Both the position numbers and the translations under genes were made by a program. From an uncultured Chloroflexus sp. (lineage in GTDB: Bacteria; Chloroflexota; Chloroflexia; Chloroflexales; Chloroflexaceae), in the NCBI RefSeq assembly GCF_937951745.1, contig NZ_CALFBQ010000001.1, positions 1 through 64,000 on the forward strand: a DNA stretch of 64,000 nt, given 5' to 3'. The notes under the pieces are model-generated. The model worked only from the letters and a program-made list of their open reading frames with translations. It ran no database searches and was not told the origin of the DNA. This document shows, piece after piece, positions 34,174-47,205 of this stretch (positions within the stretch are counted from its first letter, which is position 1; each line of letters starts with the position of its first letter).

Positions 34174-35196
34174 ATGTGGGATATTTACGGTCACGAATGG
34201 GCTATTGAGCAGTTGCGCAGCAACATCCGGTCGAACCGGGTGGCGCATGCGTACTTGTTTGCTGGGCCGCCGGGAATCGGCAAATCGCTGTTGGCGTTGC
34301 GCATGGCGCAGGCGTTGAACTGCGAGCGGCAGATGGGCGATCCCTGTTTACAATGCCGGACGTGCCGGCGGATCGAGCGTGGCAGCCATCCTGATGTGCG
34401 AGTGGCTGGAATGGCGACGCAAGCGGCGGCGGCAAAGGCTGATGAGGCGGCGCGGCAGAAAGAGCTGAAGATTGCAACGATTCGGGAATGGCAGCGCGAT
34501 ATTGCCTTGCGGCCTTACGAAGCGGCGTGGCGGGTGTTGATCTTGCACGATGCCGAACGGCTGAGCGAAGAGGCGGCTAACGCGATGCTGAAGACGCTGG
34601 AAGAGCCGCCCGATTACGCGACGTTGTTGTTAGTGGCCCACAGCAGCGAACTACTGCCGACAATCGTCTCGCGTTGCCGGGTGCTGCGGTTGCGTCCGCT
34701 GCCGCGCGAGCAAGTAGCAGCGGCGCTGCAAGCGCGTGGCGCGGCGCCGGAGTTGGCCATAGAGCTCGCGGCATGGAGCGGGGGCCGGGTCGGGTGGGCG
34801 ATCAGTGTATTGGCCGATCCGGCAGCGCAGGCAGCGCGGCGCGAGCAGTTGGCGGAATTGATCGGGTTGGCTGAGCAAGATCTGAGCGCGGGTTTGCGCT
34901 GGGCCGAGCAGCGGGCGAAAGAGTACCGCGCCGGCGAGCAAGAGACGGCGCTGGCATGGCTGGAATTGTGGCAGAGCTGGTGGCGCGATGTGGTATACGT
35001 CGCCGCTGGGTGTGACGAAGCGGTGACGAACGTTGATCGGCGGGCCGAACTAGCGGCAGCGGCCCGGCGGGTCACGCCAGCGACGGCGCTGGCCTTCTTG
35101 CAGCAGATCATTGCTGCTGCCCAACAACTGCGCGAGAACGTCAACCCGCAATTGGCGCTTGAGCATCTTGTCTTGCATCTTCCGCGGGCGAAATGA
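34174..35196 (+). CDS. holB: DNA polymerase III delta-prime subunit (clamp-loader ATPase)
   Basis: A 340-residue AAA+ protein. Walker A is GPPGIGKS (31-38); a zinc module has Cys50, Cys58, Cys61 and Cys64; the Walker-B-like region is VLILHDAERLSEEAANAMLK followed by TLEEPPDYATLLLVA, and sensor 1 is LLPTIVSRCRVLRLRPL with the SRC motif. The C-terminal half is helical, as expected for the clamp-loader collar. It helps load the sliding clamp. A canonical Walker A is retained, unlike E. coli delta-prime. It sits alone between fabF and a converging NYN gene. Confidence 0.9.
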   Translation: MWDIYGHEWAIEQLRSNIRSNRVAHAYLFAGPPGIGKSLLALRMAQALNCERQMGDPCLQCRTCRRIERGSHPDVRVAGMATQAAAAKADEAARQKELKIATIREWQRDIALRPYEAAWRVLILHDAERLSEEAANAMLKTLEEPPDYATLLLVAHSSELLPTIVSRCRVLRLRPLPREQVAAALQARGAAPELAIELAAWSGGRVGWAISVLADPAAQAARREQLAELIGLAEQDLSAGLRWAEQRAKEYRAGEQETALAWLELWQSWWRDVVYVAAGCDEAVTNVDRRAELAAAARRVTPATALAFLQQIIAAAQQLRENVNPQLALEHLVLHLPRAK

Positions 35197-35213
35197 AGGT
35201 TGCGGTTGGGCGC

Positions 35214-35894
35214 TTATAAGTGATACCGCAACCGTTGCGACGCACCTTCTTCGAGTGAGATCAGGCGATTGGTGAACAGCATCGTCGTGAGCGCCTCGGT
35301 TTCGGCGGCGGTGAGTTGTTGTTTAGTCAACGAGGGCAGATGGTTGCGCAGCTTATCGAGCGTGCTGGGGCGTGAGGGCGTATGGTGTTTTAATCGTTCA
35401 ATCACCACCTCGTACAGCTCGTTTAATGACGGTTTTGCGCCGTTGGCAGCGAGCAGCGATGATGATTCAGGTGCGGCAGGCATCGCCGGAATTAATTGCT
35501 GGTCGTTGGCTGCGGTGTTCTTGCGCAAGAAGGGGAGATCATCAATGCTGGCCGAGCGATATACCTTTAGGCGCTTTTCGCGCAGATGCTGGATGAGCGG
35601 GTCGAAGCCGGTATCGTTTGAGACAATGTGAAAATAGGCGTTTGCGCCGCGTTTCACCAGTATGCCGAGATAAAACGCGATATGAAAATCCAGTGCATTT
35701 GCGCCGCTCGCGCCGATCTTTACGTACATCGCGCGATTACCCAGTCGCTGCATCGCATCGGCAAACTCGAACGGGATATGTTTCTGGTTTGCGCCAACAA
35801 AGGTGATGACGCGCACAAAGGAAAGGTTTGTGAGGGCGACGAGATTGGGTTGGACATTCTCGTAGTCGATAAGAATGTAGTTTACCGGTTGCAT
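35214..35894 (-). CDS. NYN/PIN-like nuclease domain protein
   Basis: A 226-residue protein. The first ~125 residues match a NYN/PIN fold: the opening strand NYILIDYENVQPN with the first acidic residue, ITFVGANQKHIPFEF, YVKIGASGANALDFHIAFYL and HIVSNDTGFDPLIQHLREK, which supply further conserved Asp residues. Such domains cut RNA with Mg ions. The C-terminal ~90 residues form a separate small helical domain (LNELYEVVIERLKHHTPSRP, LTKQQLTAAETEALTTMLF), perhaps for nucleic-acid binding. It is divergent from the ABC-kinase fusion gene and converges with holB. Its role could be RNA turnover or defence. Confidence 0.72.
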   Translation of the reverse strand: MQPVNYILIDYENVQPNLVALTNLSFVRVITFVGANQKHIPFEFADAMQRLGNRAMYVKIGASGANALDFHIAFYLGILVKRGANAYFHIVSNDTGFDPLIQHLREKRLKVYRSASIDDLPFLRKNTAANDQQLIPAMPAAPESSSLLAANGAKPSLNELYEVVIERLKHHTPSRPSTLDKLRNHLPSLTKQQLTAAETEALTTMLFTNRLISLEEGASQRLRYHL

Positions 35895-35919
35895 GAGAAC
35901 GTTTCCTTACTGGTGTGAA

Positions 35920-35928
35920 TGCTATACT
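35920..35928 (+). promoter_or_regulatory. Extended -10 promoter of the ABC-kinase fusion gene
   Basis: TGC-TATACT at 35920-35928, in the gap between the divergent NYN gene and the fusion gene. It lies within the longest possible open frame, which argues that the true start is further downstream, at GTG 35967 or ATG 35988. Confidence 0.5.
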
Positions 35929-35987
35929 TAGATTATAAGGATCACAATTGCCAGACTATTACACGAGTGAAAACTACAGCCACATCT

Positions 35988-37577
35988 ATGCGACCCTTGC
36001 TCAGCGTGCGCGATCTCCATATCGTCTTTGCCGCTAAGCCGATCCTCAGCGGGATCAATGTTGAGCTGCACCCCGGCGACATCTTGGGGGTGGTAGGTCT
36101 GCGCAGCGCCGGCAAGTCGGTGCTCTTGCAGGCGCTGGCCGGGATCTATCCGCCTACAGCGGGTGAGATACAGGTTGATGGCATCCCTTTGACGTGGGCA
36201 GCACAAACGGCGCAGCGACGCGGGATCGAGTTTGTGCCGCAAGCGCCGCTGCTGGTCGAAGTGATGCCGGTGCTAGATAATATCTTTTTAGGGCGTGAAC
36301 TGGGCAAATGGCGGCTCGATCCGGCGGCAATGGTGACTACGGCATACCAGTGGATCGAGCGGTTTGGTTTGCCGGGCAGCCTTGCCCACCAGCGCGCCAG
36401 CGATCTGACCGAAGAGGAGCGGCAGTTGGTGGCGTTGATCCGGGCCTTTGTGCGGCCAGCGCGGCTGCTGATCCTCGATGAGGCACTCTCGGCGTTGAGT
36501 TTTGCCTGCCAGCAGGCCGTCTTGCAGCACTTGCGCGAGCTGGCAGCGGCGCAGGCCGGCATGATCCTCAGTAGCGACGACCTCAATCTCATCTTTGCCA
36601 TCACCAACCGAGTGCTGGTGCTGTACCAAGGCCGGCAAGCGGCGTTGCGCGCCACTGCCAGCACGACACCGCGCGAGATCGTCGAGCTGATGGTGGGGTC
36701 GGTGCGGCAAGAGCGGGTCACGCCGTTGATTTGGGCCTTTGAGAACTACTATCAGGCGCAGCAACAAGCAGAACAGTTACGGCAACAGCAACTGCAACTG
36801 CAAAACAACCTCGCCGCGCAAGACTCGCTCAACCGTGAGCTAGTGCAACGGCTGCACGAGCAAATGGTGGCGCTCGATCAACTCAATCAGGCGTTGCAAG
36901 AGGCCCATCACCGTTTGATGCTCGAACGCGAAGCCGAGCGCAAGGTGTTGGCGCGTGAATTGCACGATCAAGTGATTCAAGACCTGCTCAGTTTCAACTA
37001 CCAGCTCGAACACGTCGAAGAGGAGATCGAGCAGGATGCAGCCTTGAGCGAACTGCAGAACATCCGGCGCGGGATTCGCGAGGTGGTGGCAGTGTTGCGC
37101 CAGATGTGCAGCGATCTGCGCCCGCCCACGCTCGATAGCCATGGCTTGGCGGCGGCATTGCGTTCGTTGGCAAGCCAGTGGAGCGATCAGACCGGGATTC
37201 AGGTCGAGTTGCTACTGGCCGAGCCGCTGGAACGTTGGCCGGAGACGATTGAATTGGCGGTGTTTCGGATTGTGCAAGAGGGCTTCAACAACGTGCGCAA
37301 GCATGCCGGCGCTACGCGCGTATTGCTTGAGGTGCGGCGCACCTCGGCAGCGGGGGTGATGGTGCGGTTGGCCGATAATGGGAGGGGAATGGTGACGCCG
37401 CCCGATTTGCAACGCCTCGCGGAACGGAAGCATTTTGGCTTGATCGGGATCAGCGAGCGGGTGTCGCTCTTGCGCGGTACCTTGCAGATTGGGCCATCAG
37501 TGTGGGGCGGGTTAGAATTGCAGATCGAGATACCCAATCCGGCACCGTTTCCGGCGGAAGGTATTGGCGTGAAGTAA
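35988..37577 (+). CDS. ABC ATPase domain fused to a NarL-type sensor histidine kinase
   Basis: A 529-residue soluble chimera (from ATG 35988; GTG 35967 is possible). Residues ~1-240 match the first ATPase half of sugar transporters: Walker A GLRSAGKS (37-44), Q-loop Gln85, Walker B LLILDE (160-165). The signature reads LTEEERQ (140-146) instead of LSGGQ, and the H-loop His is Asp197 (ILSSDDLN), so transport-type hydrolysis is doubtful. A Gln-rich coiled coil (250-320) leads to the H-box ARELHDQVIQDLLSFNYQLE with phospho-His326, LRPPTLDSHGL, N-box IVQEGFNNVRKHAG, ADNGRGM and HFGLIGISER. It has no membrane segment. It probably senses ATP state or docks on the sugar permease, and signals to the neighbouring regulator. 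Confidence 0.88.
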   Translation: MRPLLSVRDLHIVFAAKPILSGINVELHPGDILGVVGLRSAGKSVLLQALAGIYPPTAGEIQVDGIPLTWAAQTAQRRGIEFVPQAPLLVEVMPVLDNIFLGRELGKWRLDPAAMVTTAYQWIERFGLPGSLAHQRASDLTEEERQLVALIRAFVRPARLLILDEALSALSFACQQAVLQHLRELAAAQAGMILSSDDLNLIFAITNRVLVLYQGRQAALRATASTTPREIVELMVGSVRQERVTPLIWAFENYYQAQQQAEQLRQQQLQLQNNLAAQDSLNRELVQRLHEQMVALDQLNQALQEAHHRLMLEREAERKVLARELHDQVIQDLLSFNYQLEHVEEEIEQDAALSELQNIRRGIREVVAVLRQMCSDLRPPTLDSHGLAAALRSLASQWSDQTGIQVELLLAEPLERWPETIELAVFRIVQEGFNNVRKHAGATRVLLEVRRTSAAGVMVRLADNGRGMVTPPDLQRLAERKHFGLIGISERVSLLRGTLQIGPSVWGGLELQIEIPNPAPFPAEGIGVK

Positions 37578-37729
37578 CGCGAAGGCGCGAAGGGTAAAAC
37601 GTAAAGGCGCGAAGAACGCCGAGGACGCAAAAGTTATGATGCGGGGTATCAGGGGGTCTTAAGCCAAGCAGATGATATTCTTTGCGTCTTTGCGTTTTTG
37701 TATCTTTGCGTCCTTGCGGTATGGTGGTA
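37578..37729. repeat. Convergent intergenic region with short repeats
   Basis: The fusion-kinase gene and the response-regulator gene converge here. The left half has two copies of AAGGCGCGAAG (37582-37592 and 37604-37614) and GGACGCAAAAG; the right half has repeated TTTGCGTC and CTTTGCGTCCTTGCGG, largely complementary to the left. The arrangement can fold on itself and may end both transcripts. Confidence 0.55.
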
Positions 37730-38794
37730 TCACGACCGCTTGCGTCGCAACGCATCCTCTACCACCTGCCGCACGGTGGCCGCATCGAGGTCTTTTTTGT
37801 CGAGAAAAGCCAGCGCGCCGGCTTCCAACCCCAACCGGCGAAACTCGCGGTCAGGGTAGGCGCTGATCAAGATCGCCCGGATGTTGGGGGCAATATTTTT
37901 CACCCGGCGCAGGCATTGAATCCCATCGCCATCGTTCAAGATCACATCAATGAAAGCTAGATCGGGCGTGATCTGGCGGAGCAAGTGAGTCGCTGCATGG
38001 CAATCCTCGGCCTCGTAAAGCTGCGCTTCGGCGCAGGCCTTGCCGACCATGCGCTTGAGTTGGGCACGGTAGCGTTCGTTATCGTCGATAATCAGCACGG
38101 TCAGCGGGCTAGGGCCGGCTGGCAGTTCGCGGTTTTGGGCTGCTTCGTGGCCCGATTCGGCTAGCAATTCGGGATGGCGCAATGCAAACTGGTAGGCTTC
38201 GAGCCGGCTGCTCACGCGGATGGTGCGGTAGAGTGCGGTGAGGTGATTTTCAATTGTCTTGACGCTTAGATCCATCTCTTGGGCCATGCGGCGGTTGTCG
38301 TAACCTTGGGCGATAAGGCGGAGGAGATCGCGTTGGCGTTTGGTGAGGCTGATCGGCGAAGGGTGTGCCAACTGCGGCGCTGCTTGGATGAGACGGCTGA
38401 GGAGCGGGCTAGAGATCCAGTTGCCGCCGGCCATAATCCGTTGCACGGCTAGTTGTAGATCGCTGAGGGGTTGGTCTTTGAGGTGGTAACCGTTGACGCC
38501 GGCGGCGAGCAGGCCAACGACGTAAGATTGATCATCGTAGGCGCTGACGACTAAAATCTTCATCGCCGGATAATCGGCATGAATCTGGCGGATGGCGTTA
38601 ATCGGATCAAATTCCGGCATGGCCACATCTACCACCAGCAGATCGGGGTGATGCTGGGCTAGCGCAGCGAGTAGTTGTGGGCCGGTGGCCGCCTCACCGA
38701 CCACCTCAAAGTCAGGCAAGCCGGCAAGTGCAGTGCGCAAACCAGCTCGTACAACGGCATGATCATCGGCCAATACGACGCGGGTTGTTCCCAT
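37730..38794 (-). CDS. Response regulator with receiver-LuxR HTH-receiver order
   Basis: A 354-residue regulator. The first receiver (about 1-125) has Asp10/Asp11 and acceptor Asp56 in LLVVDVAMPEFD. The NarL-type HTH lies at about 150-210 (LTKRQRDLLRLIAQGYDNRR, MDLSVKTIENHLTALYRTIR). A second receiver (about 230-354) has VLIIDDNERYRAQ and acceptor Asp in LAFIDVILNDGDG, ending AFLDKKDL. Ordinary NarL regulators end at the HTH, so the trailing receiver is unusual. ATG 38794 is favoured because homology starts there. It is the fourth gene behind the sugar ABC transporter and faces the fused kinase, its likely phosphodonor. Confidence 0.9.
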   Translation of the reverse strand: MGTTRVVLADDHAVVRAGLRTALAGLPDFEVVGEAATGPQLLAALAQHHPDLLVVDVAMPEFDPINAIRQIHADYPAMKILVVSAYDDQSYVVGLLAAGVNGYHLKDQPLSDLQLAVQRIMAGGNWISSPLLSRLIQAAPQLAHPSPISLTKRQRDLLRLIAQGYDNRRMAQEMDLSVKTIENHLTALYRTIRVSSRLEAYQFALRHPELLAESGHEAAQNRELPAGPSPLTVLIIDDNERYRAQLKRMVGKACAEAQLYEAEDCHAATHLLRQITPDLAFIDVILNDGDGIQCLRRVKNIAPNIRAILISAYPDREFRRLGLEAGALAFLDKKDLDAATVRQVVEDALRRKRS

Positions 38795-38924
38795 CGCCCA
38801 TTCCCCACCATGGTTGACGTACCGGCGTGATGACGCCAAGGGATACAAATTATTATCGCCGAAGAAACGGCTGGGGGCAAATGGGCGGATGCGGGAGGGG
38901 GCGGAGCGGCGCGGGGGGCGGGCT

Positions 38925-38958
38925 ATCGTAGAGCCGCGCAGCCGTGCGGCTCTACGAT
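38925..38958. repeat. Perfect palindrome ATCGTAGAGCCGC...
   Basis: Thirteen-base arms at 38925-38937 and 38946-38958 with an eight-base loop, between the permease gene and the response-regulator gene. It shares CCGTGCGGCTCTA with the element at 34135-34158. It may attenuate transcription between transporter and regulator. Confidence 0.65.
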
Positions 38959-38978
38959 GGCATGTTTACCGCAGTCTA

Positions 38979-40178
38979 TTATCCCGCACGACCACGGCGG
39001 CGGGTGGTCACGTCGAACACCACGGCGGCGACCAATACCAAACCGCGCACGATGTACTGGTAGGCAATATCAATGCCCATCAGGTTCATACCGCTGGTCA
39101 GCGACACATACACCAGCGCGCCGATGATCGATCCGATCACATTGCCGACGCCGCCAGCGGCGGACACACCGCCAATGTACGCCGCAGCAATCGCGTCAAG
39201 CTCAAACAGGGTGCCGGCGGTGGTGGTGGCCGAGCGTAACCGCGAAGCAAACAAGATGCCCGACAAGGCCGAAAGTACTCCCATCGACGCGAAAACGATA
39301 TAGGTCATGCGCTTGACGCTGATACCGCTCAGCTCAGCCGCTTCGGGGTTGCCGCCGACTGCATAAATATGCCGGCCCAGCACAGTTTGGGTGGTAATGA
39401 AGTGGTAAATCGCCACCACTACCAACACGATCACCATCGTCCACGAGAGGCCGTTATAGCCGGCCATAATCCACGCCAGCAAGCCGATCAAGGCCGAGAT
39501 AAAGACCAGCTTGAGCACAAACATATCGGTGGGCAAGACCTCGAAATTGTAGGCCAGCTTCTTGTTGCGGCTGCGGATTTCGCTGATGACAAAGGCAACG
39601 ATGGCGAGCACGCCGAGGAAGAGGGTGAGGGTATGGTAGCCGGGCACAATGCTCAACGGCACATCAGGAATAAAGCCATTGCCAATCGCGTTGAAGGTCT
39701 CATCTTCGATAATAATCGTACCGGTGCCGGCGGTGACCAGTTGCAATGCGCCGCGATAGATGAGCCAGCCGGCCAGTGAAGCGACAAACGAGGGAATCTT
39801 CAACTCGGCGACCGGAAACGCCGTCAATAGACCGGCCAACCCGCCGAGAACCAGCACCATTGGCACCACCACAATCGTTGGCAGATCCCAGAAGCGGAGG
39901 GCGATCGCGGCGACTGCGCCAAGGAAACCGGCTAAAAAACCGACCGAGAGATCAATATGGCGAATGACAATGACCAATGTCATCCCAACCCCCAGCACCG
40001 CAATGTAGCCAGTCTGGTTGATCAGATTGCTGAGGTTCCGCGACGAGATAAAAATGCCGTTGGTTGTGATCGAAAAGATGATCATAATGACAAAAAGGGC
40101 GATGAACATGCCGTATTGGCGGATATTCTGCCCCAACGCCCGTTGCAAGTTCGCGACAAATGCTGCTCGAGTCGTCAT
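38979..40178 (-). CDS. Monosaccharide ABC transporter permease (XylH/GguB-like)
   Basis: A 399-residue membrane protein with about ten hydrophobic segments. Family patterns include INQTGYIAVLGVGMTLVIV, RHIDLSVGFLAGFLGA, LKIPSFVASLAGWLIYRGAL, the coupling-helix region GRHIYAVGGNPEAAELSGIS, and FELDAIAAAYIGGVSAAGGV. Its length and the long insert favour the XylH/GguB (MmsB) branch over RbsC. It follows the ATPase gene after 23 bases and completes a binding protein-ATPase-permease set. Expected substrates are aldoses such as xylose, arabinose, galactose or glucose; the exact one cannot be read from sequence. Confidence 0.92.
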   Translation of the reverse strand: MTTRAAFVANLQRALGQNIRQYGMFIALFVIMIIFSITTNGIFISSRNLSNLINQTGYIAVLGVGMTLVIVIRHIDLSVGFLAGFLGAVAAIALRFWDLPTIVVVPMVLVLGGLAGLLTAFPVAELKIPSFVASLAGWLIYRGALQLVTAGTGTIIIEDETFNAIGNGFIPDVPLSIVPGYHTLTLFLGVLAIVAFVISEIRSRNKKLAYNFEVLPTDMFVLKLVFISALIGLLAWIMAGYNGLSWTMVIVLVVVAIYHFITTQTVLGRHIYAVGGNPEAAELSGISVKRMTYIVFASMGVLSALSGILFASRLRSATTTAGTLFELDAIAAAYIGGVSAAGGVGNVIGSIIGALVYVSLTSGMNLMGIDIAYQYIVRGLVLVAAVVFDVTTRRRGRAG

Positions 40179-40201
40179 TGTCTCCTCCGCCGCGTTGTAC
40201 T

Positions 40202-41725
40202 CTAATAGTCAACCGCCAGCTCCATAATCTTTTCTTGGGTGGCTGCCGCAACCGGCAGTTCACCTTTCATTCTCCCGCCAGAGACGACGTAGATTCGGTC
40301 ACTCATACCCAACACTTCGGGTAGTTCCGACGAAATCATAATGATGCTCATCCCCTCTTCGACCAGCCGGTTCATCAACTGATAGATCTCGTATTTTGCG
40401 CCAACATCGATCCCGCGGGTCGGCTCATCAAGGATAAGTACATCGGGCCGCACAAACAGCCATTTGCCGAGGCACACCTTCTGCTGGTTGCCGCCGCTGA
40501 GATTGACGACCTGTTGTTCGATGGTGGGTGTTTTGATATTGAGCGATTTGCGATAGCCTTCGGCGACCTGAATCTCGGCATTGCGATCGATGACGCCATT
40601 TTTCGCTAACGCTTGCAGGTTGGCAAGAGTAATATTTTGGCGCACATCTTGGATCAAGACCAGCCCTTTGGCTTTGCGATCTTCGGAAACGTAGGCCAAA
40701 CCGGCGGCGATCGCTTCGCGAGGATGGCGGAACACGCGCTTGCGGCCCTTCAGCCACAACTCACCGCTAAGCCGATAGCCGGGTGCATTACCAAACAGAC
40801 TGAGCGCCAGCTCGGTGCGACCGGCACCCATCAGGCCGGCCAATCCGACAATTTCACCCTTACGCACTTGGAGATTGACATCGCGTAGCAAGTAGCGGCC
40901 CAACTCAGGCGCATAGACCGTCCAGTTCCGCAATTCCAGCATCACCTCATCACTGATCTGATGGTTGCGGGGGGGATAGATATTGGTAATCTCGCGCCCG
41001 ACCATATTGCGGATGAGCGCTTGCTCGCTCACCTCGCCGCTGTGCCCATCGAGGGTGCAAACTGTCTTGCCGTCGCGAAGGACGGTCACGGTATCAGCGA
41101 CCGCCAACACCTCTTTCAGCTTGTGTGAAATCAGAATGCAGGTTACGCCATGATCGCGCAATTCACGTAACAGATTCAGTAAATTCTCGCTGTCGTTCTC
41201 GTTGAGGGCGGCGGTCGGTTCGTCGAGAATCAGAAGCTTGACTTCACGGCTAAGCGCCTTAGCAATTTCGACCAGTTGCTGCTTGCCGACGCCGAGATCG
41301 CGGATTTTAGCGGCGGGATTGACATCTAAGCGCACTTTGCGCAACATCTCATTGGCGCGGCGGATGGTCTCGTTCCAATCGATCACACCGTTGCGACTAA
41401 TTTCGTGACCAAGAAAGATATTTTCGTAGACGGTCAATTCGGGCACAAGGGCCAATTCTTGATAGATAATGCCGATGCCGACTCGTTCGCTATCGGCGAT
41501 GCCAAAAAAGCGTTGGGGCTGGCCATCGATCAAGATTTCGCCGCTGTAGGAGCCATACGGATACACACCGCTCAGCACCTTCATCAAGGTTGATTTACCA
41601 GCGCCATTTTCACCGACCAGACAGTGGATTTCGCCGCGCTTGACGCTAAAGGTGACGTTATCGAGCGCGCGCACACCGGGGAATTCCTTGGTGATCTGGC
41701 GCATTTCGAGGATAGGGGGTTCCAT
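40202..41725 (-). CDS. Sugar ABC transporter double ATPase (XylG/GguA-like)
   Basis: A 507-residue protein with two ABC domains. The first has Walker A GENGAGKST, signature-like LGVGKQQLVEIAKAL, and Walker B LLILDEPTAAL with ISHKLKEV. The second has a degenerate Walker A GLMGAGRTEL, full signature LSGGNQQKVCLGKWL and LILDEPTRGIDVGAKYEIY. This one-good-one-degenerate pattern is normal for the carbohydrate uptake 2 class. It powers uptake through the neighbouring permease. Spacing to the binding-protein gene is 126 bases. Its first domain is the closest relative in the window of the ABC part of the fusion kinase. Confidence 0.94.
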   Translation of the reverse strand: MEPPILEMRQITKEFPGVRALDNVTFSVKRGEIHCLVGENGAGKSTLMKVLSGVYPYGSYSGEILIDGQPQRFFGIADSERVGIGIIYQELALVPELTVYENIFLGHEISRNGVIDWNETIRRANEMLRKVRLDVNPAAKIRDLGVGKQQLVEIAKALSREVKLLILDEPTAALNENDSENLLNLLRELRDHGVTCILISHKLKEVLAVADTVTVLRDGKTVCTLDGHSGEVSEQALIRNMVGREITNIYPPRNHQISDEVMLELRNWTVYAPELGRYLLRDVNLQVRKGEIVGLAGLMGAGRTELALSLFGNAPGYRLSGELWLKGRKRVFRHPREAIAAGLAYVSEDRKAKGLVLIQDVRQNITLANLQALAKNGVIDRNAEIQVAEGYRKSLNIKTPTIEQQVVNLSGGNQQKVCLGKWLFVRPDVLILDEPTRGIDVGAKYEIYQLMNRLVEEGMSIIMISSELPEVLGMSDRIYVVSGGRMKGELPVAAATQEKIMELAVDY

Positions 41726-41851
41726 ACACGCACCGCCTCATCATATGGATATGCCGTGAGGTGAGGAGAGGGGTTATCCTCTTGCGAATAGGCGTCATCG
41801 TTGGCTCAGATCGGGATGCGGCCATCCCGATCTGAGCGGAACAATTGCGGT

Positions 41852-42994
41852 TTACGGCAGATTGGTGAAGTCGCTGGCGCTATAGTAGCCGGAGTCGATC
41901 AGAGCAGCGCGCACGTTGTCGCGGGTGACGGTCACGACCGGCGACTGGATGGCAGGCACGTCGATCTTACCGTTATTGTAGGAACCGCGTGACGTAGGTT
42001 GCTTGTTCTCAAGCAGAGCGACCGCGGCGCTAATCGCATCCTTCACCAGCGTGCGCACATCTTTGAAGACGGTCATCGACTGGCGGCCATCGATGATGTA
42101 CTGCACCGACGCCTTTTCGGCATCTTGGCCGGTCACGAAGTACTGGGTCACATCCTTATCGGCGGCGAAGGCATCGGCGATCGCGCGGGCGGTGCCATCG
42201 TTGGGGGCGAGAATGTAGACCTTGCCCTTATCGGCGGCGCTAGCGGCGGTCAGGTTCGCCTCGGCAAGATTCTTGGCGGTGTTGAAATCCCAGTTGGTGG
42301 TGATCTGACCGAGGATCTTGGCCATCTCGTCGCGGGTAAGGTCAAGCTTGTTCTGCAACGCGACGGCCTCGCTCGAATTCTTAATCACGAAGGTGCCAGC
42401 GACGATCTTGGGTTGGAGCACCTTCCACGCGCCTTCAAAGAAGAGGAAAGCGTTGTTGTCCGAGGCAGCGCCAGCATAGAGGTAGAGTGGATTGCCGCTG
42501 CCGCTGGCATTATCAACCAGATATTGGGCCTGCTGCGCACCCACGGCGATACTGTCGAAAGTGACATAATAGTCAACGGCGTCGGTCTCGCGGATGAGGC
42601 GGTCGTAGGAGATGACCTTGACGCCGGCGGCGCGGGCAGCGGCGGCAGCCGCAGCGGCGGCGGTGCCATCGTGGGGGCAGATGATCAGCACTTTAATGCC
42701 CTTGGCGAGCAGCGCCTCGACATTCTCTTTTTCTTTGGCCGACGAACCTTGGCTAAAGAGGATTTCAACCTGATAGCCGGCCTGCTGCAACGCCTCGCGG
42801 AAGCGGGTCTCATCTTGGATCCAGCGGGGTTCATCTTTAGTGGGAAGGACGATTCCGACCGCGAGTTGCTGGCTGCTGCCGGTGCTGCCACCGGTGCTGC
42901 CACCGGTGCTGCCGCCAGTGTTGCCACAGGCGCTCAACAGGAAGGTAAACGCCGTCAACAACGACAATACGAACCACAAGGTCTTCTTCGACAT
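41852..42994 (-). CDS. ChvE/XylF-like sugar-binding lipoprotein
   Basis: A 380-residue periplasmic-type binding protein. The signal ends in lipobox LLSAC (Cys23), followed by a GGST-repeat linker. The binding fold begins QLAVGIVLPTKDEPRWIQDE and includes GIKVLIICPHDGTAAA, GVKVISYDRLIRETDAVDYY, PLYLYAGAASDNNAFLF and YFVTGQDAEKASVQYIIDGR, typical of the ChvE (multiple monosaccharide) group. It captures sugar at the outer membrane face and delivers it to the permease. ATG 42994 follows GGAGG; the longer frame upstream has no signal peptide. It is the first gene of the transporter operon and is divergent from the LAL regulator gene. Confidence 0.92.
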   Translation of the reverse strand: MSKKTLWFVLSLLTAFTFLLSACGNTGGSTGGSTGGSTGSSQQLAVGIVLPTKDEPRWIQDETRFREALQQAGYQVEILFSQGSSAKEKENVEALLAKGIKVLIICPHDGTAAAAAAAAARAAGVKVISYDRLIRETDAVDYYVTFDSIAVGAQQAQYLVDNASGSGNPLYLYAGAASDNNAFLFFEGAWKVLQPKIVAGTFVIKNSSEAVALQNKLDLTRDEMAKILGQITTNWDFNTAKNLAEANLTAASAADKGKVYILAPNDGTARAIADAFAADKDVTQYFVTGQDAEKASVQYIIDGRQSMTVFKDVRTLVKDAISAAVALLENKQPTSRGSYNNGKIDVPAIQSPVVTVTRDNVRAALIDSGYYSASDFTNLP

Positions 42995-43186
42995 CACAGT
43001 CCTCCTTGAACACGGCAAAGCTACACCATTGCGAACCAAGTCATTGCAGGGAACTTTCGCTGCCGGGTACACCTCCTTGTGTGCATGGCAACAACAATAC
43101 TGATGGCGCTATTGAACCATGCCGGTGCGAGCTTGCCCATCCCCGCAACCCTGAAAGCGACTAGGGAGTTACTCCTACTCGAGAAT

Positions 43187-43202
43187 TAGGGGATTTCCCC
43201 TA
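43187..43202. promoter_or_regulatory. Possible operator between the sugar operon and the LAL gene
   Basis: A small inverted repeat, TAGGGG-ATTT-CCCCTA, lies in the ~290-base divergent gap that otherwise shows no gene. Its position suits binding by the neighbouring LuxR-type regulator, but this is only positional inference. Confidence 0.3.
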
Positions 43203-43287
43203 CCACACCCCGTACTGCAATCGCCTGTGGTAGACTACATCACACAGCGACCAAGCAACCAACCACATCACCACTCGGAGATCGCGC

Positions 43288-46044
43288 ATGATGCCACTGA
43301 TGCGCACCAAATTACAGCCGCCTGAAGTGCGACCGTCGCTCCTTGCCCGGCCACGGGTCTATGAACAGCTCCGCCATGCCTTACACAGCCGACTGGTCTT
43401 GATCAATGCGCCTGCCGGGTATGGCAAAACGTCACTTTTAGTTGAATGGATCGAAGAAGGGCGCAAGGAGTGGTCGCACATTGGCTGGTTAAGCCTCGAT
43501 GCGACCGACAATGACATCCGGCGATTGTTTGCCTATCTTCTCGAGGCATTAACGAACATTCCGTTTGAACGTCGCGAGCGGTTGCGGGCCGTGATCAGCG
43601 CAGAAGTTGATCTTGACGCCGAACAATGGTTTGCCGAATTATTGAACGATCTGGCGGAAGTAGCTGGCCCAACGGTCATCATTTTTGATGATTATCATCT
43701 GATCAATGATGGGCAGATTCATCAAGCAATAACCTTCTTGGTCGATCATCTACCACCTCGGTGCCGGTTGATTATCGCCACCCGCAGCGATCCGCCGTTG
43801 CCGCTTGCGCGGTGGCGAGCGCGTGGGCATTTAGCCGAGTTGCGCAGTTTTGATCTGGCCTTTAATCCAGAAGAGGCGGCCACCTTTTTGTTAGAAGTAA
43901 TGGAATTGCCATTGAGCCGTGATCAGATCGTGACTTTGCTCGAGAGCACGGAAGGATGGCCGGCTGGTTTGCATCTCGCCGCGCTAGCATTACGGAGTCG
44001 ACCGAATCAGAGCGAGGTGGTTGATGAATTGATTGCCAGCAACCGGTATGTAGCCGACTATTTGATCGAGGATGTGTTTAACCAATTGCCGGCGCACCTA
44101 CAACAATTTCTCTTGCAGACCTCGATCCTTGACCGGTTGTGCGGGCCGCTCTGCGATGCCGTGATTGGCGTTCACGAACAGAGTGCGCCAAGCCAAAACA
44201 ACCAGTCGTACAGCCAGTTGGTGTTGGCCGAAATCGAGCGCAACAACCTGTTTCTCTTCCCGCTGGATGCCGAGCGGGTGTGGTACCGGTACCATCACCT
44301 GTTTGCAGATGTCTTGCGGGATCGGCTCGAGGCGGGCAGCAGCGCCGAGCACATCGCCATACTCCACCGGCGGGCAGGGGCATGGTACGCGGCCCATGGC
44401 ATGCTGACGCAAGCTGTCAATCACGCTTTGCGCGCGCAGGCGATCGATGATGTGGTGGCGATGCTGGAGCCGATTGGGTTGGCGTTTATTTCGCAAGTAG
44501 GGGAAGCGACCCTCCGGCGTTGGCTGCCGGAAATCCCGGAAGCAGCGTTTGAGAGCCATCCACGTTTAGCGTTATTGCGCGCTTGGCTGGCGGCGGCTGA
44601 TTATCAAGTTGAAGACGCGGCCCACTGGATTGCGGTCGCTGAGCGAGCGTTGGCGGGGGTAGCGAGCGGTGCGACGACGCCGATTGGGTTGATTGCCAAT
44701 CTGCGCGGCGAATTGAGCGCGGTGCGGGTGCGGTTGGCATTGTTGCAAGGGAATACCGAGCAGGTCATCCACGAAGGAAAGCAGGCCTTAGCATGGTTGC
44801 AGGCTGACAATCAGGCATTGCGCATGCGGGTGGCGAAAGATTTGGGCTATGCCTACCTTGCCCAACGTGATCTAGTGCGAGCCGAGCAAGCCTTCAGCGA
44901 GGCGAGCATCAACGGGTTTAACGCCGGTTTGCCTTACATTTCAGCGATGGCGACGGTTGATTACGCCTATACACTGGCATTACGCGGTTCGATTGGGGCA
45001 GCGATTAGCATCTGCCGCGATACGATCAACCAGATGTTACGGCGCAATCGCAGTCGCACACAACCCGGCATCGGCTTGCCGTTTTTGGCGTTGGCCGATC
45101 TGCATGGGTTACGGTACGAATTTGCCGGCGCGTTACCGGCCTTGGCTGAAGCCGAGAGCGCGATTAAATCGGGCCAAACCACGAGTTATTTCAACCTCTT
45201 GATAATGATGGCACGCATTATGCGTGCGCGCGGCGATGCCGACGGCGCGCTGCGGGTGATCCGGCAGGCACGCTTTTTAGCTCGCCAGCGCAACGTTGAT
45301 TGGGTGCTAGCAGTGCTTAATGGGCTGGAAGCGCAGATTCTGACGGCGCAAGGTGAATTCGACGCTGCCGAGCAACTGCTCGACGATCGTTTACGCAAGC
45401 CGGTGGAGTTTCGCTATATGCCGGTGGCGGCATTCTATGCCCGCGAGCATATCACCCGGGCAGGCTATGAATGGCGGCTGACCAGTGCGCGCGCAATCGG
45501 GAATGGGGAAGCTTTGCGGGCATTGGCGGCTGAGTTGGCCCAGCCGCACAGCGGCGAGATCTGGCAGGCGTTGGCGCCGCTTGATGCAGCTTTGTTGCGT
45601 GGAATGGCATTGGCGGCTGTCGGTGATGACGGCAGCGAGGCGCTGTTGACCGCACTTGATCTTGCGACGAGCGAGCGGATCGTAGCGCCGTTTCTTCAAG
45701 CCGGTGCGCCGTTACGACTCATGCTGTCGCAATTGGCGGCGCGCCAACAGCTATCGCCCTATGGCGAATATCTGCTCTCGTTGTTTGATGACGATGAGGT
45801 AGCGCCGGCAATACCGGCAAGTGCGCTGGCGTCTTCTGCAGCGTTGCCTGACCCCCTCAGCCAGCGTGAGATAGAGGTGTTACGTTTAATGGCGGAAGGG
45901 CGGAGTAACCACGAGATCGCTGCGACTTTGGTGATCGCGGTGAGTACGGTCAAATCGCACATTAACAGTATTTTCAGCAAGTTGGGCGTCGCCTCACGCA
46001 CGCAAGCAGTGGCGCGCGCGAGGCGACTAAGGTTGATCCCGTGA
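43288..46044 (+). CDS. MalT-like large ATP-binding LuxR regulator (LAL family)
   Basis: A 918-residue regulator. The N-terminal STAND-type NTPase has Walker [12 protein letters not shown] (about 41-51), Walker [30 protein letters not shown] and [17 protein letters not shown] long TPR-like helical region (about 350-830) would bind the inducer. The C-terminal HTH is [20 protein letters not shown] with [20 protein letters not shown]. MalT binds maltotriose and ATP; the ligand here is unknown, but the gene is divergent from the sugar ABC operon, which it may control. ATG 43288 or 43294 are both possible starts. Confidence 0.9.
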
Positions 46045-46152
46045 GAGCGCATCTAAAGCACACGCTCAACGGCGGTGAAACATCCTGCTGGCTAAAGAAG
46101 AAAAAAACCGTTCGAACCGTAAGCATCCGTGGCGAGCTGGGTCCTTTGGCTT

Positions 46153-47205
46153 TTAGCGGCGTACAATCTCGATCAGATCGCGCAGCATGGCTTGGCACGT
46201 CCCTAAGGGGCCATCTTCGAGGCTGCTGATCGTCGAGCGCCCGGCGCTATCGCTAGAGATCACGAAACCCATTTCGCCGTGGGCTAGCCGGGCCAGCGGG
46301 TGTTCGGGGCCAAGGACAGCGGGAGCTACCGATAAATCGTAACGTCCATCAGGCTGGCGCTCGGCGCGGGCAACCAGCGAGATACGACCGCCAGCCTGCC
46401 ATGCTGCGGCTAATTCGGCAGCCGTAACGTCACGAATCCCGCGTACCGTCACATCGGCCAGCGTCGTGGGCTGGCCGAGCACTGCGTTGGCGAAGATCAC
46501 CAGCTTGTTGGCGGCGTCCCAGCCATCGACATCGAGCGAAGGATCAGGCTCAACGATCCCCTGTCGTTGCGCTTCGGCCAGCGCAGTGGCGAAATCGGCG
46601 CCGGCGGCCATCTGTTCGAGAATGACCTGCGTGGTGCCGTTAACGACGAGCTCAGCGCGTTCGATCTGGGCACCGGCCAAATCGCGCCGGCCAAAGTTGA
46701 TAGTCGGCAAAGCGCCTCCTACCGCGCCAGAGAAACGCAAGGCTGGGCGGGGGCTGCGGGGCGAGAGATCGTCGGCCCAATCGCTTAGCGCAGCTAACTC
46801 GGCAAACGCCAGCACCAACGGCCCTTTGCTAGCCAACACGGCTGACTTGCCGCGGCGCAAAGCCGCTCGCACAATATCGAGGCCGGGCTGGCCATCGCGG
46901 AGGTTGGTCGGGGTAGCTTCCAGCAACAGATCATACGCAGCGGTTTCGGCCAGCGTGATCACATCGAGATCAGGGCGAAACGACGGCAAGGCCGCCACAC
47001 CCAACTTGCGCCGTTTGACATCAATAATCGCCGGGAGATCGAGACCGCCGGGATCAAGCGCCACGCCGCTCGAGTCGGCGACGCCAACAATGCGGAGATG
47101 AAAGCCATACCGGCGCGGCAGCCGGTCAGGATCGGCAACCAACATTTCGAGGAATGTGCGACCAATATTCCCGATACCGGTGAGAATAGCGTCAACCATA
47201 TCCAT
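46153..47205 (-). CDS. hom: Homoserine dehydrogenase, short form without ACT domain
   Basis: A 350-residue enzyme. The NAD(P) site is ILTGIGNIGRTFLEML. The substrate region includes GGALPTINF, ELVVNGTTQVILEQMA, EAQRQGIVEPDPSLDVDG and WDAANKLVIFANAV, typical of homoserine dehydrogenase. It reduces aspartate semialdehyde to homoserine for threonine and methionine. There is no C-terminal ACT domain, so feedback by threonine through that route is not expected. ATG 47205 has AGGAG five bases upstream. It converges with the LAL gene and is divergent from the MshEN-repeat gene. Confidence 0.9.
   Translation of the reverse strand: MDMVDAILTGIGNIGRTFLEMLVADPDRLPRRYGFHLRIVGVADSSGVALDPGGLDLPAIIDVKRRKLGVAALPSFRPDLDVITLAETAAYDLLLEATPTNLRDGQPGLDIVRAALRRGKSAVLASKGPLVLAFAELAALSDWADDLSPRSPRPALRFSGAVGGALPTINFGRRDLAGAQIERAELVVNGTTQVILEQMAAGADFATALAEAQRQGIVEPDPSLDVDGWDAANKLVIFANAVLGQPTTLADVTVRGIRDVTAAELAAAWQAGGRISLVARAERQPDGRYDLSVAPAVLGPEHPLARLAHGEMGFVISSDSAGRSTISSLEDGPLGTCQAMLRDLIEIVRR

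Follow-up and report, generated by a model that had tools for sequence, protein, structure and literature searches.

A degenerate sugar-importer ABC domain fused to a histidine kinase in Chloroflexota: candidate kinase subunit of a receptor derived from an ABC importer

The fusion gene and its neighbourhood

The window analysed here is a stretch of 64,000 nucleotides from an uncultured Chloroflexus sp. (contig NZ_CALFBQ010000001.1, positions 1 to 64,000). It includes a gene in which an ABC ATPase domain is followed by a histidine kinase, close to a sugar uptake operon of the CUT2 class that was recognised by profile matches. The relevant features, in window coordinates, are the following:

35988 to 37577, plus strand: ABC ATPase-histidine kinase fusion gene, 529 aa and a stop, one open reading frame
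36096 to 36122, plus strand: Walker A motif GLRSAGKSV, residues 37-45, kept (Lys in 97 of 98 fusions, one gap)
36402 to 36428, plus strand: degenerate signature DLTEEERQL, residues 139-147, with Gly replaced by Glu at 143 (Glu in 96 of 98 fusions, Gly in 51 of 54 controls)
36567 to 36590, plus strand: H-loop stretch LSSDDLNL, residues 194-201, His lost at 197 (His in 0 of 98 fusions, 54 of 54 controls)
36963 to 36965, plus strand: phospho-acceptor His326, in the H-box (His in 50 of 50)
37730 to 38848, minus strand: response regulator REC-HTH(LuxR)-REC, likely start ATG at 38794
38979 to 40178, minus strand: CUT2 permease, GguB-like, canonical loop GGNPEAAELSGI, candidate docking partner
40202 to 41725, minus strand: ordinary CUT2 ATPase, GguA-like, both ABC halves in one chain
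41852 to 43072, minus strand: CUT2 sugar-binding protein, ChvE-like
43162 to 43177, no strand assigned: possible weaker second copy of the operator, TAGGGAGTTACTCCTA
43187 to 43202, no strand assigned: exact copy of the palindrome, TAGGGGATTTCCCCTA, a putative operator for the regulator, located between the divergently transcribed MalT-like gene and the uptake operon
43288 to 46044, plus strand: MalT-like AAA/TPR/LuxR regulator, divergent

The genes on the minus strand are transcribed in the order ChvE-like, GguA-like, GguB-like and response regulator, and the fusion gene is convergent with the last of these. The scores of the GguA/GguB/ChvE set against the NCBIfam models (NF040905-NF040907) lie below the curated cut-offs. 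The gap between the fusion and regulator genes (37578-37729) contains pieces of dispersed repeats, with 11 other partial matches in the same genome. No Rfam family matched positions 35000-46500 at gathering thresholds.

The frame of the fusion is already open from an upstream ATG at 35919. Its domains follow one another in the order ABC ATPase, long helix and NarL-type kinase, the pseudo-ATPase domain occupying residues 1 to about 225 and the HATPase_c domain extending to about residue 517. Pfam detects ABC_tran (4.5e-23), HisKA_3 (1.2e-13) and HATPase_c (4.9e-5), the last at 24.2 bits, slightly below its cut-off of 26.4. Among CUT2 ATPase profiles, the ABC part matches LsrA, XylG, YtfR and RbsA, in each case over their first half. 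Whereas CUT2 ATPases carry two ABC halves per chain, the fusion has a single ABC domain and then the kinase. The first-pass annotation had described a sugar-transporter-type ABC domain joined in one frame to a histidine kinase, and both parts of this description are borne out. A frame error between the domains can be rejected, since the fusion occupies one frame in 79 of 80 named loci (L082 has it in two) and in 19 of 40 other genomes (G016 has it in two). The two-frame copies, L045 (from G016) and L082, would reflect either assembly error or decay.

Among the aligned relatives, the kinase residues His326, Asn435, Asp463, Gly465, Gly467 and Gly484 are each present in 50 of 50 sequences. All residues looked for in the H-, N-, D- and G-boxes are thus in place, and the NarL-type (HisKA_3) kinase is judged to be intact. 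No membrane span was detected (no 19-residue window exceeds 1.6 on the Kyte-Doolittle scale), and the fusion is predicted to be a soluble chain.

A single-chain structure model built on 50 relatives shows a well-formed ABC domain, with block means of 83-90 except for two at 75 and 66, and an uninterrupted helix (residues 241-346) that enters the HisKA_3 phospho-acceptor region and is followed by the HATPase domain. As the pTM is only 0.48, the relative placement of the domains in this model is unreliable. All 50 matches listed by Foldseek for the model are ABC ATPases. Sequence searches of the PDB likewise gave ABC proteins, with no CUT2 sugar ATPase among the best 60 of 555 matches to the fusion profile or the best 60 of 127 matches to GguA; to judge from those best 60 GguA matches, the CUT2 class may be without a solved ATPase structure. 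A strongly conserved block, TP-x-IWA-(L/F)-ENYY (residues 245-264), marks the start of the long helix, and its Pro246 and Trp249 are found in 50 of 50 sequences.

Distribution and phylogeny

The genome from which the window comes has one full-length fusion, and all remaining matches in it cover one half only. Together with this genome, 41 genomes were searched, and 23 matched at E <= 1e-40: 20 have the fusion in one frame, G016 has it in two frames, and G037 and G040 have the kinase part only. Matches to the fusion were found in 29 of 158 genomes of the class (E <= 1e-80) and in 26 of 400 genomes of a phylum sample. A scan of 84,980 species yielded 126 stretches encoding the fusion, the best 80 of which make up the locus set; their titles name Chloroflexota or members of this phylum. 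The fusion is a Chloroflexota family.

From all loci, 98 distinct full-length fusion proteins were gathered, and 92 of these were placed in a tree built with a quick method. It separates a clade I of 38 rows from a clade II of 54 rows. The genus of the window lies inside clade I, among Anaerolineae and Thermoflexia, whereas its order is otherwise represented in clade II. This placement suggests that the fusion of this genus is a replacement acquired by transfer. Ornatilinea apprima has one fusion of each clade (L071 and L093), beside different transporters.

ATPase residues lost and retained

Residues were counted in the 98 distinct fusions and, for comparison, in the first halves of 54 double CUT2 ATPases encoded at the fetched loci. 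The H-loop histidine is present in none of the 98 fusions and in all 54 double ATPases. At residue 143, the position of the second signature glycine, 96 of 98 fusions have Glu and 51 of 54 CUT2 first halves have Gly. The catalytic glutamate, invariant in the double ATPases (54/54), is found in 43 of 98 fusions, 48 having Asp, and the position varies overall between Glu, Asp, Asn, Gly and Gln. With the glutamate kept in these 43, the fusion of the window among them, slow hydrolysis is possible. Residues of the nucleotide-binding site are retained: the Walker A lysine (Lys43) in 97 of 98 fusions, with one gap, the Walker B aspartate (Asp164) in 97 of 98 and the Q-loop glutamine in 95 of 98.

The fusion of the window itself has Walker A (GLRSAGKS), the Q-loop glutamine (Q85), Walker B (LLILDE) and an aspartate at position 197. 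The earlier observations that both Walker motifs are intact and that the H-loop histidine has become Asp therefore apply here and, for the loss of the histidine, throughout the family. The proposal that LSGGQ has become LTEEERQ is correct as a reading of the window, but it needed correction as a simple loss of LSGGQ: the first halves of working CUT2 ATPases mostly read LGVGKQQ and also lack the textbook motif. The telling changes are consequently the Gly-to-Glu replacement at 143 and the H-loop. Judged by these residues, the ATPase appears to be disabled in a systematic, family-wide way.

The ABC part has a dN/dS of 0.07-0.24 in five pairwise comparisons within the genus, some with dS near saturation, and on this measure it is evolving under constraint there. 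In structures of ABC importers, a groove beside the Q-loop receives the coupling helix of the permease. A segment that follows the Q-loop, N-[IVLM]-[FYI]-[LIV]-x-x-E, is shared by most fusions (82 of 98) and by nearly all CUT2 first halves (53 of 54), and it occurs in none of 19 other ABC ATPases read from the same genome as the window. No difference in this docking segment was seen between fusions of clades I and II.

Linkage to CUT2 transporters

A CUT2 binding protein or permease lies within 8 kb of the fusion in 70 of the 80 loci, and a relative of the regulator in 58. Many of the locus contigs are short, and a stricter subset was formed from the 36 loci flanked on each side by 5 kb or more. 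Within 8 kb, these include a binding protein in 32, a permease in 29, an ATPase in 33 and a regulator in 29. Conserved linkage to transporter genes, and to those of CUT2 type, had been named in the first-pass annotation as a test of its proposal, and other genomes thus show it. For comparison, the genome of the window (4.25 Mb) has 11 permease-family genes, so that by chance one would fall in a random stretch of about 17.6 kb in roughly 1 case in 20. The transporters at fusion loci are of several types: ChvE/GguAB, other double-ATPase and single-ATPase sets. In 11 loci, nine of which belong to clade I by the tree, the gene immediately upstream of the fusion is an ATPase-linked GguB. At the Herpetosiphon loci L117, L120 and L124, neither CUT2 genes nor the regulator are found beside the fusion.

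A dedicated permease with an altered loop

At many fusion loci a second CUT2 permease, often accompanied by a second binding protein, directly precedes the fusion without an ATPase. For example, the order is regulator-permease-fusion in L099 (20 and 12 bp between the matched stretches) and in L083 (63 and 13 bp); L101 has the regulator and then permease-binding protein-fusion; L035 has binding protein-ATPase-permease followed by a second permease, a second binding protein and the fusion. In L035 and L101 the second set consists of a PF02653 and a PF13407 protein; their nearest NCBIfam models, ribose permeases and RhaS-like binding proteins, are matched far below the cut-offs.

In a permease tree of 81 rows, built with a quick method and with long branches flagged, one clade of 18 rows brings together 15 permeases that adjoin the fusion without an ATPase, two encoded a little further upstream, on the strand of the fusion (L037_11692 and L039_5558), and L099_1905, the sole ATPase-linked member. 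Within a loop that we take to carry the coupling helix, as in BtuC-type importers, the ATPase-linked permeases of the set share the motif GGN-AA-SG. It was scored in 17 fusion-linked permeases of the dedicated kind and in 50 ATPase-linked permeases, the latter including seven near-identical copies from one genus; the remaining 14 of 81 were unscored and left out. All three elements are kept in 50 of 50 ATPase-linked permeases and in none of the 17 fusion-linked ones (Fisher 3e-16, a statistic that ignores kinship). Taken singly, each element is present in 50 of 50 of the former, and GGN, AA and SG are present in 0, 0 and 4 of the 17, respectively. As the 17 belong to one clade, the loss may represent one or two events. 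The loop is retained in L099_1905 (GGNEQAAGLSGI) and in L083_6484 (GGNIEAARLSGV). Among the 14 permeases left out, three have GGN-AA-SG and most others a near form (GDN in L104 and L118, AG for SG in the XylH-like ones), and no such motif was seen in L123. Permeases from other places are looser, with GGN-SA-TG in L205 and GSN-AA-AG in L206.

In a model of the L035 permease (pLDDT 85, pTM 0.83), where the loop covers residues 204-226, the motif occupies and adjoins two short helices (205-215 and 217-222) that are flanked by two long ones; the model superimposes on BtuC with Z 16.4 and rmsd 4.7 over 271 aligned residues. The motif losses of the fusion and the change in the permease loop mean that both sides are without what working pairs keep.

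In the genus of the window and at most clade I loci, a dedicated permease is missing from the locus, and the loop of the GguB found there is canonical, as in a working transporter. A search of the genome of the window found only GguB at E <= 1e-20 as a relative of the dedicated permease, and no relative of the second binding protein at E <= 0.001; the same binding protein query finds relatives in other loci.

The regulator and a putative palindromic operator

The regulator encoded at 37730-38848 on the minus strand has two receiver domains, and the aspartate of each is kept in 74 of 75 relatives. The protein is present in all six fusion-bearing genomes searched (that of the window and five of the genus g20) and in one of ten selected fusion-negative genomes of the family (three with a motif match and seven others); in these searches the regulator tracks the fusion. 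Three Herpetosiphon regions were read (L192-L194), and in all three the regulator lies beside a binding protein-ATPase-permease set, with the fusion elsewhere.

We collected 31 divergent intergenic regions, all distinct, between the regulator gene and the gene for a binding protein or second permease. The palindrome TAGGGGAWWTCCCCTA recurs in these regulator/transporter intergenic regions; with TAGGGGANNTCCCCTA as the pattern, 22 of 31 have it at up to two mismatches and 29 of 31 at up to three (shuffled means 0 and 0.6), the exceptions being L052 and L075. GGGGA-2-TCCCC occurs in 17 of the 31 regions and in at most 2 after shuffling. Direct repeats could be discounted, none being present in more than 3 of the 31 regions when shuffling gave up to 2. 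Since 97 loci held eight stretches twice, 89 are distinct, and 49 of these have a site at up to two mismatches. Of the 53 sites in distinct loci, 49 lie no more than 700 bp upstream of a regulator, ChvE-like or MalT-like gene.

The only exact copy in the window, TAGGGGATTTCCCCTA at 43187-43202, lies 115 bp before the annotated start of the binding protein and 86 bp before the MalT-like gene; the next best match in the window has three mismatches, and 0.9 such matches are expected at that looseness. The possible weaker copy, TAGGGAGTTACTCCTA, 25 bp away, has four mismatches to the consensus and two to the degenerate pattern. The MalT-like regulator (43288-46044, plus strand) shares this putative operator region and could be either a target or a further input. 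The genome as a whole has one strict site and seven at two mismatches, eight in all, against 16 for a reversed-pattern control; a regulon is not claimed from the seven looser sites, which are fewer than in that control, with the exception of the copy 25 bp from the strict site.

The strict pattern TAGGGGDWWHCCCCTA occurs in 16 of 158 genomes of the class (reversed control, 2 of 158). It is present in 13 of 29 fusion-bearing genomes and in 3 of 129 without the fusion; one of these three has the regulator and two do not. It is missing from the other 16 of 29 fusion-bearing genomes, including all six of g20 (Herpetosiphon). On the basis of the 58 of 80 loci with a relative of the regulator and of the palindrome that ties the regulator to the transporter promoter, the regulator at 37730 is likely to be the partner of the fusion kinase.

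A probable receptor built from a sugar importer

It seems probable, though far from settled, that an ABC sugar importer has given rise to a receptor and that the fusion serves as its cytoplasmic kinase subunit. The features that point to a remodelled importer are read from sequence: the architecture, the family-wide losses, the linkage, the altered loop and the palindrome. The ABC domains of the kinase dimer would dock on a CUT2 permease dimer, where they would replace the ATPase. The arrival of a sugar-loaded binding protein would then cause the permease to move, and the dead ABC domains, binding ATP without turnover, would pass this movement down the helices and thereby alter autophosphorylation of His326. 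The phosphate would pass from the kinase to the regulator, which would bind TAGGGGAWWTCCCCTA and set expression of the sugar-uptake operon. In many relatives the permease and binding protein would be the dedicated second set. The broader proposal, for which the chances are about even, is that the whole binding-protein/permease/ATPase importer has become a multi-subunit transmembrane receptor that senses extracellular sugar without transporting it, the ATPase serving as the input domain of the kinase and the coupling loop of the permease having changed to match.

For the genome of the window, the partner would have to be the ordinary permease at 38979. It is the candidate because the searches of that genome revealed neither a dedicated permease nor a dedicated binding protein, and docking of the fusion on it is a hypothesis. 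The partner could be GguB, another permease or none, and this is the weakest step for the window. The first-pass annotation had envisaged an ATPase half turned into a sensor docking on this permease in place of, or alongside, the real ATPase. The idea of such a sensor gains from the CUT2 linkage and the likely regulator partner. The annotation further proposed that transport state is coupled to phosphorylation; what is relayed may instead be the occupancy of the receptor by its ligand. Docking alongside the ATPase fits many relatives less well: where the fusion has its own ATPase-less, loop-changed permease, docking in place of the ATPase appears the better fit.

Under a doubtful but serious alternative, the fusion would share the ordinary GguB with GguA, bound either beside it or in alternation, and would report transport activity much as BceS reports that of BceAB. 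This reading has the same docking partner as the receptor explanation in the case of the window, and the two are not mutually exclusive. Clade I, the window included, mostly has only GguB at the locus, and the 11 loci with an ATPase-linked GguB directly upstream of the fusion, nine of them in clade I, would suit a reporter of flux. However, many relatives have a separate permease, and GguA has both ABC halves in one chain. A double-half ATPase of this kind should already occupy both sites of the permease dimer, so that both should be filled.

It is unlikely that the ABC domain is instead a cytoplasmic sensor of ATP (energy) or a dimerisation module that never contacts a permease, its linkage to transporters merely mirroring the genes that it regulates. 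Such a role would agree with the retained ATP-binding residues, the lack of a membrane span, the Herpetosiphon fusions that lie away from transporters, and the failure to find a dedicated permease or binding protein in the genome of the window. It accounts poorly for the conserved CUT2 segment after the Q-loop, for the permease-fusion operons without an ATPase, in some of which the permease and fusion matches are no more than 12-13 bp apart, and for the change, in those same permeases, of the loop expected to face an ABC domain. That the ABC part is a decaying, functionless remnant is highly improbable: the motif losses, the variety at the catalytic position (Glu, Asp, Asn, Gly or Gln) and the two copies split over two frames would fit decay, but not the near-invariance of the Walker A Lys and Walker B Asp (97/98 each), the Q-loop Gln (95/98) and the new Glu143 (96/98), nor a dN/dS of 0.07-0.24.

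Relation to known transporter-kinase systems

The likely source of the ABC domain, the permease and the binding protein is a CUT2 importer of the GguA/GguB/ChvE or RbsA type. Unlike the ATPases of such importers, the fusion has one ABC half, without the H-loop histidine and the signature glycine, and a kinase takes the position of the other.

Transport proteins have been joined to kinases elsewhere. The ammonium sensor kinase Ks-Amt5 of Kuenenia is described as coupling ammonium to histidine phosphorylation, binding it without translocation (PMC5764959). The fusion resembles it, as far as that account goes, in that a histidine kinase has taken over a transport protein for sensing (PMC5764959). 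Ks-Amt5 contains a whole membrane transporter in the kinase chain, whereas the fusion has only the cytoplasmic ATPase domain and would work with a permease and a binding protein as separate subunits. CbrA, an SLC5-STAC histidine kinase and regulator of carbon use, is presented as a 'transceptor' that transports histidine (PMC13022988). It too joins a transporter and a kinase, but there a secondary transporter is in one chain with the kinase, and the abstract mentions no ABC domain (PMC13022988). In contrast to both Ks-Amt5 and CbrA, the fusion has no membrane transport domain in the kinase chain. BceAB-BceS is reported as a sensory complex of an ABC transporter and a histidine kinase that controls the transporter's own genes (PMC10314905, PMC8534201, PMC6978683), and transporter parts and a kinase are likewise proposed here to control transporter genes. 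In the Bce system, as outlined in these sources, the kinase is separate, with two membrane helices, and the transporter is active, whereas the fusion is a single, predicted soluble chain with a dead-looking ATPase. As these sources describe them, none of Ks-Amt5, CbrA and BceAB-S joins a dead ABC ATPase to a soluble kinase. No description of the fusion was found in the open-licence PMC literature, a scope that leaves aside most subscription papers and gene-database annotations.

Transporters turned receptors are already known for single-chain carriers. If the explanation preferred here, a receptor built from an importer, is true, the binding-protein/permease/ATPase machine can also run as a signalling receptor. 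The dead ATPase domain and the altered permease loop would form a natural pair that separates the contacts needed for transport from those needed for signalling, and, for the Chloroflexota system, a regulator, an operator and a promoter can be named.
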